Part shown: positions 48,886 to 56,654 of the stretch, piece after piece
Layout of the letters: each line of letters begins with the position of its first letter
Position numbering within the stretch: the first letter of the stretch is position 1
Source of the DNA: an uncultured Selenomonadaceae bacterium
GTDB taxonomy: Bacteria; Bacillota; Negativicutes; Selenomonadales; Selenomonadaceae
DNA length: 64,000 nt
Direction of reading: 5' to 3'
Assembly (NCBI GenBank): GCA_905234175.1
Contig: CAJOGX010000001.1
Coordinates: 1 to 64,000 of the forward strand
Program-made: the position numbers and the translations under genes
The notes under the pieces: model-generated
The model's input: only the letters and a program-made list of their open reading frames with translations
What the model was told of the DNA's origin: nothing
Databases searched by the model: none

Positions 48886-50067
48886 TTAAATTTCGTCGCC
48901 GTCTTCGCTGAACTTTGTTTCGTCATTTTCAGTCGGCGGAGTTTCGGCGGGAGTTTCTTCAGCGGAAAAATCTTTGTCAGGCTTAGGCGCTTCGGTTTCG
49001 GCGACTTCAGGAATGGCGGGCTGAATGCCTTTTCTTATCAGCTCGTGAATTTTAGTTTCGATTTCGTCAAACATTTTTGGATTATCGCGCAGATATTTTT
49101 TGGCGGCGTCTCTGCCCTGCGCGAAATTTTTCAGCTCGTTGTAGGAATAGTAAGCGCCGCTCTTTTTGAGGACGCCAATTTCCGCGCCAATATCGACAAT
49201 ATCGCCGAATCTGTCGCAGCCTTCGCCGTAAATCAGGTCGAACGTGGTAGTTTTGAACGGCGGCGCGACTTTATTTTTAGCGACTTTGATTTTGACTTTG
49301 TTGCCGATAAGTTTTTTGTCTTCGTTGATAGCTTCGCCGCGCCGGACTTCGATTCGGACAGAGGCATAAAATTTGAGCGCGCGCCCGCCGGTGGTGACTT
49401 CGGGGCTTCCGAACATGACGCCGACTTTTTCGCGCAGCTGATTAATGAAAACGGCGACGGTTCCGGTTTTGCTGATAGTTCCGGCGAGTTTGCGCATTGC
49501 CTTGCTCATCATTCGCGCGTGGAGCCCGACGGACGCTTCGCCCATATCGCCGTTAATTTCAGCTTTCGGCACGAGCGCGGCAACGGAGTCGATAATAATA
49601 ATGTCAATGGCGCCGCTGCTGATTAATCTGTCGGCAATTTCAAGACCCTGTTCGCCGTTGTCGGGCTGGGAAATTATGAGCTCGTCGATATTGACGCCCA
49701 GTTTTTTTGCGTAAACGGGGTCGAGCGCGTGTTCGGCGTCGATAAAAGCCGCCGTGCCGCCGTGTTTCTGCGCAGAGGCAATCATGTGGAGCGTGACGGT
49801 AGTTTTGCCGCTGGCTTCAGGGCCGTAAATTTCCACAATCCTGCCGCGCGGAACTCCGCCAATCCCCAGCGCAATATCCAGCGTCAGAATTCCGGTCGGA
49901 ATTGCCTCAACGTCAAGATTCGTAATGCTGCCGAGCCTCATAACGGCCTTGCCGCCGCTGTCCTTGTACTTTTTGTTAATGTCCTCCATCGCCTTTTTGA
50001 GCGCTTCGGCCTTAGCCTCGGCGGTGGAAAGTTCCTGTTTGTCTTCCTTATCTTTTTTTGTAGCCAT
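48886..50067 (-). CDS. recA: Recombinase RecA
   Basis: [19 protein letters not shown]; full-length RecA with acidic tail. Confidence 0.98.
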
Positions 50068-50488: not shown

Positions 50489-53407
50489 TCAGCTCCTGTC
50501 CTTCAAAACTTCGGTGAGTGTCTCAATCATTTTGGGAATGTCGAGCGGCTTGGCAATGTGGCTGTTCATACCGGCCTCCTTCGCTGTCTGAATGTCCTCG
50601 GCGAACGCGTTGGCGGTCATTGCGATAATCGGAATCTGCGCGAGCGCGGGATTGTCGAGCCTGCGGATAGCGCGCGCCGAATCGTAGCCGTTCATCACGG
50701 GCATTTGAACATCCATCAAAATTACGTCGAAGTCGCCAGGCTTGGACGCCGCAACTTTTTCGAGCGCGTCTTTACCATCAACGGCGGTTTCAAGCTGGAA
50801 GCCAAATTCCTCAAGAATCAGCGACGCAATTTCGCGGTTGACTTCGTTGTCCTCGACGAGCAGAACTTTAATTTTCGTGAAGTCAAGTTCATTTCCGGCG
50901 GCGGCAGTGGAATTTTCGGCGGGCTCCGGTTCAGCTTCGACAATCGGAAAATCGACGCGGACGATAAATTCGGTGCCCTTGCCGAGCTCAGTCTTCACGT
51001 CAATCGTGCCGTTCATCAAATCGACAATGCTTTTTGTAATCGCCATGCCGAGCCCCGTGCCCTGAATTTTGTTGACGCTTCGGTCGCGCGTGTAAGCCTC
51101 AAAAACTTTCGCGGCAAATTCCGGCGTCATGCCCATTCCGGTATCCTTCACGCGAATTTCGTAGCTGCCGGTTTCGCCGTTCGAGCCGGTTTGCGCGAGC
51201 GTGACGGTAACGCTGCCGCCGGCTGGCGTGAACTTGAAGGCGTTGCTGATAAGATTCAAAAGCACGCGGTTCAAATGCGGCGCGTCACACATAACAATTT
51301 TGTCCGTGACTTTTTCCGCGCTGACGGTGTAGCTGACGCCCTTGGTTTCCATTTGCGTAGAAAAAAGGTCGCGCACTTCGTCCATGGTTTTGACGATATT
51401 TGTCTTTTCGACGTTCAGTTCCATTTTGCCGGACTCGATTCGGCTCATGTCAAGCACGTCGTTAATCAGCGCGAGTAAATGCTGGTTTGACGCTTCGATT
51501 TTGTCAAGGTACTCGACGACGTTGGGCGGGAGGTCGTGCTCCTTTTTAATCAGCGTCGTGTAGCCGATAATCGCATTCATTGGCGTGCGAATGTCATGGC
51601 TCATGTTCGACAGGAACGCGGACTTCGCCTTACTGCTCTGCTCGGCTTCGACTTTTTGAACTTCCATTTCCCTTTCGCGCGTCATCATCGAATTGTAAAT
51701 GTTGAACATGATAAAAAGCGCAATGGAAATCAGCGCCATTTGCAGAATGTTGTTGTTGGTCAGGGTCGCGCCGACGAAATCCATTTGCCGCTGGAGATAA
51801 TATTCGGCGTCGGCTTTTTCGCGGGCGTTGAACTCGGCGCCGTGCTCCTCAATTTCCTCGACGTAGTATTCGCTCAGGCTGTCAAGGACGGTTTTGGTAG
51901 TATCGTGCGTCGCCTCGCGCAGCCACAGCATTGACGTGAAGAAAATCAGAAACAGCAGCACTATCCAGACGACGGTGGATTTTCCGAAACGCCGCTGAGT
52001 GTCGCGCTGGAAAATGTAGCGGAAAAAGATAAAGCCCAGTATGCTCCAGCAAACCAGAATTAAATACGATTCGGTTGACATCGCACTGAGTGACCAGAAA
52101 TTCGGAATCATGAAGTACAGGAAAAAAATTACCGAGACCGCCACGCCGAAAATTCCCGTGATTCGCGGCAGAAAATTTCCAGCCTCGCGCGCCGTGATTA
52201 GCGTGACCGCCGAAGTGTACGCGTAGTCAATCGTCGCGCCAATCGTGTTCACGTCGATTATCCAGTTTATCGCCGTGCGCCCCAGGAACGGTATCGGCAG
52301 CGACAGCAGCATTATGAAAAAAATTGCGTTCTGCGGCGTCTTGAAGCGGTTGAGCTTTCCGAACCACGGCGGGAGCAAATCGTCACGCGTCAGCGCGAAA
52401 ATTAGCCGGCTCGCCGCGATATAATTTCCAACTAAGCCCGTCACGACGCCAGCTATTACCGTCGCCGCTAAAATTTTCAAGCCCGTTTCGCCTAAGAAAA
52501 AATTCACCGCGTGGAACGTTGGCAAACCTTCCAAGCCGGATAAATTCTGCAGGTTGCCAATGTACTCCACCCAGCTCGAATATCCCGCCGGTAAAGCCGA
52601 GACCGCCATTATAGTCAGGAAAATGTAGACCAGCGCGCTTGCCGCGACCGCGAAGAAAATTATCACGAAAGTTTTTTTCGGCGAAAACGTAAAGCCCTCG
52701 CTCGACTGCGAAATTGACTCGAAGCCCACGAACGCCCACGGCGCTAAAACTACAATTCCGAAAACCGCCGCGAAGGAATTTGTCTGCGGTCTGAACGCGG
52801 GCGCAATTTCAAAAATGTTGACGCCGCTCGCAATTACCGCGCCAATTCCAATCAGCACGCCGCCAAATAAAATGCACGCCGCAACCGTCTGAACCGCCGC
52901 CGCAACTTTCCCGCCGCGTATGCAGACGAAACCGAAAATCCACAGCGCGCTCAGCGATAGAAGCGCCTCGCCAAAATAAATTTCGTAACCGGCAATGTTG
53001 TAGTGGAAGCCAAACTGAAAAGTGTCGCCGAGGAAGTTGCGGAAAATAATCGGCAGCGCCGTCGCATTCGCCCAGGTTATCGCAATGTAGACAAGAATAA
53101 GAAACCACGCACTCATAAAGCCGTGGTCGTATCCGAGAACTTTTTTCGCGTAAGAGTAAGTGCCGCCGGCGTCGGGAAAGTGATTCATCATGTAATGATA
53201 GTTGTAGCCGATAACCAGCATGACGGCGCCGCCAATCGCCATTCCAAGGGCTGTCCCCAAAGGTCCGGCGATCGGCAGAAACGTCGTGCCTGGCATGACG
53301 AACGCGCCCCAGCCGACGGCACACCCGAACGATAGCGCCCAAACGTTGAGCGGCGATAAATATTTGTCTAAGTTTTTCTGTACTGTTCCGCTTTCTGCGG
53401 TTGCCAT
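50489..53407 (-). CDS. APC-superfamily permease fused to histidine kinase and receiver domain (972 aa)
   Basis: N-terminal permease (SFGCAVGWGAFVMPGTTFLP), H-box FLSNMSHDIRTPMNAIIGYT, HATPase (GTGLGMAITKSIVDLMNG), REC VLLVEDNEVNREIA...VILMDVQMPVMNGYD. Confidence 0.9.
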   Translation of the reverse strand: MATAESGTVQKNLDKYLSPLNVWALSFGCAVGWGAFVMPGTTFLPIAGPLGTALGMAIGGAVMLVIGYNYHYMMNHFPDAGGTYSYAKKVLGYDHGFMSAWFLILVYIAITWANATALPIIFRNFLGDTFQFGFHYNIAGYEIYFGEALLSLSALWIFGFVCIRGGKVAAAVQTVAACILFGGVLIGIGAVIASGVNIFEIAPAFRPQTNSFAAVFGIVVLAPWAFVGFESISQSSEGFTFSPKKTFVIIFFAVAASALVYIFLTIMAVSALPAGYSSWVEYIGNLQNLSGLEGLPTFHAVNFFLGETGLKILAATVIAGVVTGLVGNYIAASRLIFALTRDDLLPPWFGKLNRFKTPQNAIFFIMLLSLPIPFLGRTAINWIIDVNTIGATIDYAYTSAVTLITAREAGNFLPRITGIFGVAVSVIFFLYFMIPNFWSLSAMSTESYLILVCWSILGFIFFRYIFQRDTQRRFGKSTVVWIVLLFLIFFTSMLWLREATHDTTKTVLDSLSEYYVEEIEEHGAEFNAREKADAEYYLQRQMDFVGATLTNNNILQMALISIALFIMFNIYNSMMTREREMEVQKVEAEQSSKAKSAFLSNMSHDIRTPMNAIIGYTTLIKKEHDLPPNVVEYLDKIEASNQHLLALINDVLDMSRIESGKMELNVEKTNIVKTMDEVRDLFSTQMETKGVSYTVSAEKVTDKIVMCDAPHLNRVLLNLISNAFKFTPAGGSVTVTLAQTGSNGETGSYEIRVKDTGMGMTPEFAAKVFEAYTRDRSVNKIQGTGLGMAITKSIVDLMNGTIDVKTELGKGTEFIVRVDFPIVEAEPEPAENSTAAAGNELDFTKIKVLLVEDNEVNREIASLILEEFGFQLETAVDGKDALEKVAASKPGDFDVILMDVQMPVMNGYDSARAIRRLDNPALAQIPIIAMTANAFAEDIQTAKEAGMNSHIAKPLDIPKMIETLTEVLKDRS

Positions 53408-53468: not shown

Positions 53469-56400
53469 TTACATATAGTCGACGGAAGATTTGCGGCGTT
53501 CCTGTTTCATGAAGCCGAACTTTTCAGCGACCATTTCGACGATTACGAAGAAGACTGGGATAAGGAAAATTCCCATTGCGGTTGCGAAAATCATACCGCC
53601 GACGACCGCGACGCCCATACCGTTACGCGCCGCCGAGCCAGCGCCTTCAGCCATTGCCAGCGGTAAGCAGCCTATGATAAACGCCAGCGAAGTCATGAGA
53701 ATTGGGCGCAGACGCAGACCAGCCGCTTCAATCGCCGCCTTGACCGGCCTCATTCCTCTGTCGACGCGGACTTTCGCGAACTCGACGATTAGAATTGCGT
53801 TTTTCGCCGCTAAGCCGATTATCGTGATAATTCCAATCTGCATGTAAACGCTGTCCTGCAGACCGGCTTTCTGAATGTTGAACATTGCGTAGAGGATTGA
53901 CAGCGCCCATTCCGAAAAGACCGCGCCGAAAATTCCCGTGGGCACTGTCATCAAAACGGCGAACGGCACGCTCCAGCTTTCGTAAAGCGCCGCCAGCATA
54001 AGGAAGACGAATACTAGCGCAAGCGCGAGAACCTGCCCCGTCGAGCTGGACGCTTTCTTTTCTTCGCGGGACTGACCAGACCACTCGATATTAAAGCCGG
54101 TGCCAGCCTCTTCGCGAACGACTTCTTCAATCGCAGTCATCGCCTGACCGGAGCTGTAACCCTGCGCGGCGTTGCCCTGAATCGCCACTGCGCGGGAAAT
54201 GTTGAAACGGGAAATTTGCGTGGGACCAGTGCTGAGGCGCGGCGTTATCAAAGTGTCGAGCGGAATCATCTGCTCATCGTTGCCCTTGACGAAAATAAAT
54301 TTCGCGGCTTCAGCTTCCGAGCGGTAGAGCGTGTCGGACTGCAGCATAACTTTATACGTGCGCCCGAACTGGTTGAAGTCGTTGACCTGCATACCGCCGA
54401 AATTAACCTGCAGTGCGGTGAAAACGTCGCTCATGCTCACGCCGAGGAGTTTGATTTTTTCGCGGTTAATATCGTATTCGACCGTCGGCGAAGAAATATT
54501 GAACGTGGTGCGGACGCCCTGAAGTTCCGGTCGCTGATTAGCCTTCGCAACGATTCTGTTTGTAATTTCGTTGAGTTCCTCGTTGGTGTGCCCCGCCATA
54601 TCCTGCAGCTGCATAGACCAGCCGCCGACGTTGCCGAGGCCAGGGAGCGCCGGCGTGTTGAAGGCGATAACCATTGCTTCCGGCGCGTGAATCGCTCCAA
54701 GCTGGAACATTTTGCCAATACAATCGTTAATCGAGACGCCATCGCGTTCGCCCCAGGATTTCAGACTGCAGACGACAATTCCCGCGCTGGGTTTCGAGCC
54801 GCCGGAAAGAATATCAAATCCGACAGCCGACATGCACGCCTGTAAGCCAGGCATTTCGCGCATAACCGCCGCCGAAAGTTTGTCAATCGTTTCCTGCGTG
54901 TGGTTCATGGAAGTTCCTTCGGGCAGGCTGACGGCCGTCATGAAGAAGCCCTGATCTTCCTCCGGCACGAACGTTGACGGCAGCCGCGAATAGATCATTC
55001 CCATTAAAATGCAGACCACCGCCAGGCAGACGAACGCCAGCGCTGATTTTGAAATGAACGCCGCCACGATTTTTACGTAGCGATTTTTCGTGCGGTCGAA
55101 CCAGTTGTTGAAGGCGTTGAAAGCTTTGTCGAAGATACCTTTTTTAGCGTTGGGGTCTTTTGGTTTGAGAATCATCGCGCAGAGTGCCGGAGTCAGCGTC
55201 AGCGCTATGAACGCGCTCAAGCCCATGGAAATTGCAATTGTCAGCGCGAACTGCTTGTACAGAACGCCGGTCATTCCGCCTAAGAATGCAACCGGCACGA
55301 AAACCGCCGCCAGTACGAAGGCGATAGCTACGACCGGCCCCTGAACTTCGTCCATTGCGCGCTCCGTCGCGTCTACCGGATCCAGTCCGCTTTCCATGTG
55401 GTGCTCGACGTTTTCAATGACAACTATCGCGTCGTCGACGACCAGACCTATCGCCAGAACCATTGCGAAAAGCGTCAGCGTGTTTATCGAAAAGTCCAGC
55501 AGCACGAAACTGGCGAAAGTCCCGATAAGCGAAACCGGCACCGCCAGCAGCGGGATTAGCGTCGCGCGCCAGCTTTGCAGGAAGACGAAAATGACTATGA
55601 CGACCAGCGCCAGCGCTTCAACGAAGGTGTGCGCAACTTCCTCAATCGATTCGCGAATGTAATCCGTGCTGTCGAAAATCTGGTCGATGTACAGTCCAGG
55701 CGGAAGGTCGAGTTTACTGCGCTCGATAATTTCACGAACTTCGCCAACTGTCGTCATTGCGTTCGCGTCGCTCGTCAGCAGGATACCGAAGGCAACCGCC
55801 GCGTTCCCGTTGAACTTACTGGTAATGTTGTAGCCCTTCTGCCCAGTTTCAATGCGCGAAACGTCCCTGAGCCGCACGAAGCCGCCCCTGCCGTCACTCT
55901 TAACGATTATGTTTCCAAATTCCTCAATCGTAGCGAGGCGCCCCTGAACTTTGCCGGTGTACTGTTTTTCCTGCCCGATATTGACCGGCATTGCGCCAAT
56001 CGTACCGGCAGCCGCCTGCTGATTCTGTTCGTTAATCGCGGAGACAACCTGCGCAACGGTTAAATCCAGTTCGGCGAGCTTGTCGGGGTTGAGCCAGACG
56101 CGCATTGAATAATCCGCGCCGAAAATCTGAATATCGCCAACGCCGTCGACGCGCTTGATTTCGTCCATAAGATAAATATCGGCGTAGTTTTTCATGAACG
56201 CGCGGTCGTACCTGCCGTCGGGCGAATAAATTGAAAGCATGAGTGCCATCTGGCTGGAAGATTTGCGCGTGGTAACGCCAACCGCCTGCACCGCGCTGGG
56301 GAGGCTGGAATTTGCCACGGCGACGTTATTCTGAACTTTAACGGCGTCCATGTCGCTGTCTGTGCCGACTTCAAAAACGACGCTCAGGCTGTAGCGGCCG

Positions 56401-56654
56401 GTGTCGTCGGAGTTGGAACTCATGTAGTCCATGCCCTGCGTGCCGTTGACCTGCTGTTCGATAACCTGCGCTATCGTCTGGTCGACGACTTCCGCGTTTG
56501 CGCCGGTGTAGGTTGTGCTGACTGAAACCGTCGGCGGCGAAATTTGCGGGTACTGCGCGATTGGCAGTTGAAGTCCCGCCAAAATTCCGACCAGCACGAT
56601 TATCAGCGAGACGACGATTGCGAAAATTGGTCGGTGAATGAAAAATTTAGCCAC
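53469..56654 (-). CDS. RND efflux transporter, HAE1/AcrB-type
   Basis: 1061 aa; MAKFFIHRPIFAIVVSLIIVLVGILAGLQLPIAQYPQISPPTVSVSTTYTGANAEVVDQTIAQVIEQQVNG. Confidence 0.96.
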   Translation of the reverse strand: MAKFFIHRPIFAIVVSLIIVLVGILAGLQLPIAQYPQISPPTVSVSTTYTGANAEVVDQTIAQVIEQQVNGTQGMDYMSSNSDDTGRYSLSVVFEVGTDSDMDAVKVQNNVAVANSSLPSAVQAVGVTTRKSSSQMALMLSIYSPDGRYDRAFMKNYADIYLMDEIKRVDGVGDIQIFGADYSMRVWLNPDKLAELDLTVAQVVSAINEQNQQAAAGTIGAMPVNIGQEKQYTGKVQGRLATIEEFGNIIVKSDGRGGFVRLRDVSRIETGQKGYNITSKFNGNAAVAFGILLTSDANAMTTVGEVREIIERSKLDLPPGLYIDQIFDSTDYIRESIEEVAHTFVEALALVVIVIFVFLQSWRATLIPLLAVPVSLIGTFASFVLLDFSINTLTLFAMVLAIGLVVDDAIVVIENVEHHMESGLDPVDATERAMDEVQGPVVAIAFVLAAVFVPVAFLGGMTGVLYKQFALTIAISMGLSAFIALTLTPALCAMILKPKDPNAKKGIFDKAFNAFNNWFDRTKNRYVKIVAAFISKSALAFVCLAVVCILMGMIYSRLPSTFVPEEDQGFFMTAVSLPEGTSMNHTQETIDKLSAAVMREMPGLQACMSAVGFDILSGGSKPSAGIVVCSLKSWGERDGVSINDCIGKMFQLGAIHAPEAMVIAFNTPALPGLGNVGGWSMQLQDMAGHTNEELNEITNRIVAKANQRPELQGVRTTFNISSPTVEYDINREKIKLLGVSMSDVFTALQVNFGGMQVNDFNQFGRTYKVMLQSDTLYRSEAEAAKFIFVKGNDEQMIPLDTLITPRLSTGPTQISRFNISRAVAIQGNAAQGYSSGQAMTAIEEVVREEAGTGFNIEWSGQSREEKKASSSTGQVLALALVFVFLMLAALYESWSVPFAVLMTVPTGIFGAVFSEWALSILYAMFNIQKAGLQDSVYMQIGIITIIGLAAKNAILIVEFAKVRVDRGMRPVKAAIEAAGLRLRPILMTSLAFIIGCLPLAMAEGAGSAARNGMGVAVVGGMIFATAMGIFLIPVFFVIVEMVAEKFGFMKQERRKSSVDYM

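Follow-up and report, generated by a model that had tools for sequence, protein, structure and literature searches.

A permease-like APC domain fused to a hybrid histidine kinase in a rumen relative of Selenomonas, and related modules carrying other signalling outputs

Gene, domains and neighbourhood

The window (the whole 64,000-nucleotide stretch of DNA that we analysed) comes from a rumen bacterium, a member of the Negativicutes related to Selenomonas, whose draft genome consists of 48 contigs and is 82% complete. Positions 50489-53407 of the minus strand hold a single intact ORF of 972 codons (ORF listing and Pfam), which starts with ATG and has AGGAG just 5' of the start. Its product combines a complete APC fold with a hairpin of two extra transmembrane (TM) helices, a HisKA domain, a HATPase domain and a receiver (REC) domain (Table 1). 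A sequence-only reading of this DNA had named the permease, HisKA, HATPase and REC parts, and the domain search that it proposed bears them out, with all Pfam calls lying above the curated gathering cut-offs: AA_permease_2 matches residues 17-438 (1e-28; 100.9 bits against a cut-off of 27), and HisKA, HATPase_c and REC are found at 3.5e-21, 6e-27 and 7e-25, respectively. The kinase motifs are intact (H604, N-box at 718, G1 at 755, G2 at 783 and D899 of REC). With the phosphoacceptor histidine, the N and G boxes and the receiver aspartate all in place, the protein is a hybrid histidine kinase, and the AA_permease_2 profile match together with a predicted LeuT fold with broken TM1 and TM6 assigns its membrane part to the APC superfamily.

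Table 1. Features of the permease-kinase gene and of the adjoining genes in the window.
Feature	Positions	Strand	Evidence
APC (LeuT-fold) transporter-like input domain, 12 TM, residues 1-470	51998..53407	-	Pfam AA_permease_2 and AA_permease above cut-off; AlphaFold2; Foldseek
Stalk: TM13, variable periplasmic helical turn, TM14, signalling helix; residues 479-590	51638..51973	-	Hydropathy, AlphaFold2
HisKA dimerisation/phosphoacceptor domain, residues 594-660, H604 in SHDIRTP	51428..51628	-	Pfam PF00512, motif
HATPase_c catalytic domain, residues 708-821	50945..51286	-	Pfam PF02518; N, G1 and G2 boxes intact
REC receiver domain, residues 848-964, D899 in DVQMP	50516..50866	-	Pfam PF00072, motif
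PspE-like rhodanese lipoprotein, 129 aa	50092..50481	-	Pfam Rhodanese; top NCBIfam match PspE, under its cut-off
RND efflux transporter gene, 61 bp upstream of the kinase gene	53469..56654	-	Pfam ACR_tran

The gene is flanked by genes for a membrane-fusion protein and the RND pump upstream and by the rhodanese gene and recA downstream; no response regulator or DNA-binding gene adjoins it in the window, in agreement with the earlier remark that a DNA-binding partner is not adjacent. The rhodanese gene starts 7 nt past the kinase stop, with an AGGAG within the last kinase codons, and is apparently translationally coupled to the kinase gene. The encoded PspE-like sulfurtransferase carries a lipobox, and its active loop reads CWTGRR. 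In 17 loci (from the window's genus and related genera of its family) the rhodanese gene is the first to follow on the same strand, whereas in 53 others it does not occupy this place. The RND pump and membrane-fusion protein genes lie upstream in the nearest relatives only (the window, L013/L109 and L028/L134), and a functional link of the pump to the sensor is uncertain. At the rhodanese position, several congeners carry a longer ORF (233-241 aa, against 129 here), and the one in L111 begins a second domain copy. The recA gene (48886-50067) lies about 25 bp past the rhodanese gene on the same strand and may therefore be partly co-transcribed with the sensor.

As a phosphorelay partner, the sequence-only reading had suggested an orphan Hpt or a response regulator. 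The 82%-complete genome yielded no stand-alone Hpt: its six Pfam Hpt domains all lie within larger ORFs of CheA or hybrid-kinase size, so the receiver may pass its phosphate to one of these or to a missed Hpt. The Hpt of a relative used as query found no match in this genome, a weak negative given that the search had no positive control, and neither a cognate Hpt nor a regulator was identified in this genome, none lying beside the gene in the window. In several other genomes the homologue is immediately preceded by an Hpt gene, confirmed by Pfam in L050 and L052 and recognised by sequence similarity in L053, L059 and L064. Other relatives have genes for REC-GGDEF (L033) or REC-GGDEF-EAL (L128) proteins nearby, and in L047 a nearby gene encodes an HD-GYP protein that weakly matches 5TMR. 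For the relatives, though not for the window protein specifically, these neighbours, together with the CheB, MCP and flagellin genes near the homologues in L124, L125 and L129, hint that signalling often ends in cyclic-di-GMP or motility. We also considered whether neighbours reveal the ligand; the rhodanese, RND pump, amidase and phosphate transporter genes vary between subclades, so that none of them fixes it.

Predicted fold, pocket and stalk

The AlphaFold2 model of residues 1-600, built on 31 aligned members (mean pLDDT 84, pTM 0.84), predicts a LeuT-type APC fold with TM1 broken at 31/34 and TM6 at 219-229. Foldseek matched it to AdiC, GkApcT, y+LAT1, LAT and BasC, with best target TM-scores of 0.73-0.81 (0.76-0.81 for AdiC, GkApcT, y+LAT1 and BasC). 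Only AA_permease families match the membrane part in Pfam, with no SSF match at E 1e-3, and no Amt match occurs in the 972-aa protein. The protein reaches no cut-off of a named NCBIfam amino-acid transporter, the best being TIGR00909 (84 bits against 557), and stays far below that of the CAT transporters (TIGR00906; 53 bits against 682).

Nine residues are invariant in the 31 members (G32, G34, W101, Y107, N114, P223, W224, G228 and Y261) and four more are nearly so (W33, F226, F229 and E230), and several of them fall within the pocket motifs GWG of TM1 (residues 32-34) and PWAFVGFE of TM6 (residues 223-230). With GkApcT, CAT and AdiC, the protein shares the fold and the pocket scaffold, that is the TM1 GxG, the TM6 aromatic gate and the TM7 tyrosine, although identity is about 20% and these proteins are free-standing transporters without outputs. 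After correction for the numbering of the profile used in this comparison, which runs 1 ahead of the window protein past about residue 200, W224 corresponds to the Phe231 gate, E230 to Asp237 and Y261 to Tyr268 (PMC5803215). The differences concern three GkApcT residues that bind the ligand carboxylate (Thr43), couple protons (Glu115) and form the Na2 site (Lys191; PMC5803215). The near-invariant W33 occupies the Thr43 position, and Glu115 and Lys191 have no equivalents, the respective positions in the APC-fusion family being V/T/A/S/C (position 106) and mostly I/L/V/F (position 179).

We at first read these absences as a loss of transport residues that had left a pure sensor, but dropped this idea: free-standing Staphylococcus and Ilyobacter relatives, by sequence inspection, have the same GWG and also lack the Glu115 and Lys191 equivalents, so pocket residues cannot separate receptor from transporter. 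As for W33 itself (window 53305-53311), it sits in the unwound region of TM1, where the usual residue next to the ligand carboxylate in APC transporters is Ser, Thr, Ala or Gly; being common to the free-standing Staphylococcus and Ilyobacter relatives as well, it may mark an unnamed APC subfamily.

The "extra TM/periplasmic segments" of the sequence-only reading resolve, by hydropathy and in the model, into TM13, a variable periplasmic turn and TM14. Hydropathy peaks at residues 478-496 and 553-575, with about 55 residues between them; AlphaFold2 predicts TM13 as a long helix (479-522) and residues 528-599 as one helix that runs unbroken from the periplasm through TM14 into the DHp. Neither Pfam nor the model gives a PAS, STAC or other domain at residues 470-594, between the membrane and the DHp. 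In members L054, L055 and L067 the periplasmic loop is nearly absent.

The 32 divergent kinase members, compared pairwise, are on average about 72% identical in their TM1/TM6 core; the corresponding figures are 46% (whole APC domain), 50% (HisKA-HATPase), 48% (REC), 33% (stalk) and 19% (periplasmic portion of the stalk). This disparity between core and periplasmic stalk argues that the ligand site is the conserved part. For the APC part, close pairs give dN/dS values of about 0.08-0.19 (dS being high in some), and in most of them the kinase has a similar ratio; the APC part is therefore no remnant in decay, and these ratios and the conservation of the pocket also speak against a decaying anchor. 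Conservation and dN/dS together indicate that the permease pocket is maintained and that the periplasmic loop is unlikely to be the ligand site.

Spread of the fusion and its outputs

A paralogue of the same design (963 aa, contig 12; 48% identical over the APC-to-HisKA part) is encoded in the same genome, in which only three AA_permease_2 genes were found, two of them fused kinases. Relatives with 63-78% identity over the APC-to-HisKA part occur in 17 of the 24 other congeneric genomes, some of their ORFs being cut by contig ends, and several of the 24 have one or two additional paralogues. Across the class (381 Negativicutes genomes from 102 genera), the APC domain was found at E below 1e-60 in 120 genomes and 19 genera; among the weakest matches, with E of about 1e-63 to 1e-65, a few are possibly permeases without a fusion partner.

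A species-level scan with one genome per species returned at least 80 loci. The APC domain is present in 42 of the 80 loci listed (joined to a kinase in 35 and to another output in three, free-standing in two Synergistota loci, and cut off in two), so that at least 35 loci from several phyla encode APC-kinase proteins in this genome collection. Among the matches listed, fused members belong mainly to the Bacillota (Selenomonadaceae, Lachnospiraceae, Oscillospiraceae and Erysipelotrichaceae) and are also assigned to Spirochaetota, Thermodesulfobacteriota (Desulfovibrio), Verrucomicrobiota and Mycoplasmatota, although the non-Bacillota members are mostly contigs of metagenome-assembled genomes whose assignment is possibly wrong, an exception being Treponema sp. 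JC4, which carries a strain label in its record. Further strain-labelled assemblies with the architecture are Butyrivibrio sp. MB2005 and Lachnospiraceae NK4A144 and AC3007. Ruminant-gut labels are attached to 29 of 42 APC loci as against 5 of 38 kinase-only loci among the matches listed (Fisher p 4e-7, with L057 and L058 counted as APC-domain loci), an excess that is partly relatedness because the query lineage was itself seen mostly in rumen samples. A plasmid scan gave APC-only matches with at most 34% identity and no fusion among them. The fusion is thus widespread, which the sequence-only reading had allowed for; that it might also be characterised did not hold, in that we found no description of APC-domain kinases or cyclases in the open-access literature, the scope of our search. 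The APC-kinase architecture is probably already listed in domain databases.

The kinase is one of several outputs. Besides HK-REC, as in the window protein, the APC module is joined to HK-REC-REC (L047), HK-REC-Hpt (L051), a kinase without REC (L124, L125 and L129), GGDEF (L062, L114, L126, L127 and L128, and two copies in L115, the second by sequence), PAS-GGDEF (L066) and HD-GYP (L067), and the TM13-TM14 stalk usually accompanies it in the fusions. The phylogeny that had been proposed for the fusion places these exchanges: the starred branches of the APC tree, a quick tree with an uncertain root, force at least two changes to GGDEF, one of which falls within the window's genus (L114, L115). 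Since the form of the APC module stays constant while its partner enzyme is exchanged, and the same module is joined to different outputs, the APC part behaves as an interchangeable input module. SLC5-STAC modules, which are fused to kinases and to diguanylate cyclases (PMC7096432, PMC9100948), provide a precedent for such modularity. That other bacteria, most of them from the rumen, carry the permease module on several outputs points to a family of "transporter-receptors" on which little has been written.

The kinases without REC occur as tandem pairs in the window's family (L124:7347-12326, L125:5995-10946 and L129:8507-13406), with gaps of 11-15 bp, and adjoin genes for CheB and an MCP (L124), CheB (L129) or flagellin (L125); they are possible heterodimeric sensors tied to motility. 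In L127 (904-9546), two same-strand APC-GGDEF genes and one APC-HK-REC gene share one genome stretch. In Synergistota, family members that stand alone as APC proteins (about 40% identical) adjoin a hybrid histidine kinase (L069:2597-5529) or an HD-GYP-like protein (L076:5986-7416), and these loci look as if the fusion partners had remained separate genes.

Proposed mechanism and its alternatives

The permease family of yeast Ssy1 is placed in the APC superfamily. Ssy1 resembles the window protein in being a receptor derived from an amino-acid permease family (PMC12958826), but it is eukaryotic and signals via Ptr3/Ssy5, with no fused enzyme. The SLC5-STAC histidine kinases CbrA, CrbS and RpuS, like the window protein, join an N-terminal LeuT-fold transporter domain to a histidine kinase and sometimes to a REC domain (PMC7096432, PMC9100948); the LeuT fold has been seen in the structure of CbrA (PMC13022988). 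The earlier idea of an APC-type counterpart to CbrA holds. Whereas the membrane part of CbrA, CrbS and RpuS is of the SLC5 family, with 13 TM helices, a cytoplasmic STAC-PAS linker and usually an associated response regulator, the window protein belongs to the APC sequence family, has a two-helix TM13/TM14 stalk with an extracytoplasmic turn, has no PAS before the DHp and lacks an adjacent regulator. The ammonium sensor kinase Ks-Amt5 is also a transporter repurposed as a receptor and fused directly to a kinase (PMC5764959), but has the Amt fold, is trimeric and has no REC; the window protein thus lacks the defining features of both the SLC5-STAC and the Amt groups while resembling both in design. 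5TMR sensor kinases (S-component fold) share a transporter-related membrane fold and interchangeable HK, GGDEF and EAL outputs (PMC11109136), but their fold is unrelated and has far fewer helices.

We consider it probable that the protein is a bacterial transceptor in which a ligand of the APC pocket, most likely an amino acid or amine, drives the stalk and the kinase, and that it does not serve mainly for bulk uptake. The fusions and the sequence conservation argue for this class, and the fold and the relatives point to an amino acid or amine as ligand. Flux sensing, as earlier proposed, is one option; pocket occupancy would suffice. The ligand would bind between the broken TM1 (GWG) and TM6 (PWAFVGFE), a site placed by homology at residues that are conserved. 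Closure of the pocket would then move the bundle and TM12 and thereby shift the TM13-turn-TM14 hairpin, and the predicted continuous helix of TM14, coil and DHp might alter the kinase/phosphatase balance at H604. Phosphate would pass to D899 of the attached REC and on via an Hpt, of the kind adjacent in several relatives, to a response regulator. In other family members, the same module would drive a diguanylate cyclase or an HD-GYP protein directly.

A less likely reading, to which we give perhaps a minor share, is a true transporter with a built-in regulator, in which the kinase would monitor the transport cycle of a substrate-importing APC domain and so couple uptake and signalling. The complete 12-TM LeuT fold, the intact and strongly conserved pocket and the purifying selection are compatible with it, CbrA as the best-studied analogue transports histidine and signals (PMC7096432), and the scarcity of AA_permease_2 genes, two of three being fused, means that the fusions might contribute to uptake. 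Against it stands the absence of the Glu115 and Lys191 equivalents, a weak point given that free-standing relatives also lack both.

That the APC domain is a mere anchor or scaffold, the stimulus being sensed by the periplasmic loop between TM13 and TM14, by the membrane or by the rhodanese lipoprotein, strikes us as improbable. The TM-loop-TM hairpin does resemble the sensor of ordinary small histidine kinases, the loop diverges fast and the periplasmic rhodanese is apparently coupled in translation; yet the pocket-forming TM1 and TM6 are the most conserved parts and the loop is among the least, some members almost lack the loop, and the rhodanese is limited to part of the family. The draft state of the genome invites the suspicion, raised in the sequence-only reading, of an assembly or gene-calling error that joined a permease gene and a kinase gene. 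Because the congeneric relatives and the same-genome paralogue share the architecture, as do many independent genomes including strain-labelled assemblies, such an artefact can be dismissed with near certainty.

Transceptors are described as rare and, in the strict sense, as almost wholly eukaryotic (PMC11109136). On balance, we lean towards viewing the window protein as part of an undescribed prokaryotic family of APC-fold transceptors, a counterpart of Ssy1, that would serve as interchangeable amino-acid or amine input for phosphorelay and cyclic-di-GMP enzymes and would have spread between rumen phyla. Such a large bacterial family, in which the fold known from human SLC7 and yeast Ssy1 is coupled to enzymes with easily assayed activity, would make signalling by a LeuT-fold pocket, without or together with transport, directly testable, and may reveal the amino acid or amine that many rumen bacteria keep track of. 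A distant free-standing Ilyobacter relative (28% identity) precedes gabT and a 4-hydroxybutyrate dehydrogenase gene, a context that offers, as a lead only, omega-amino acids such as GABA as candidate ligands.
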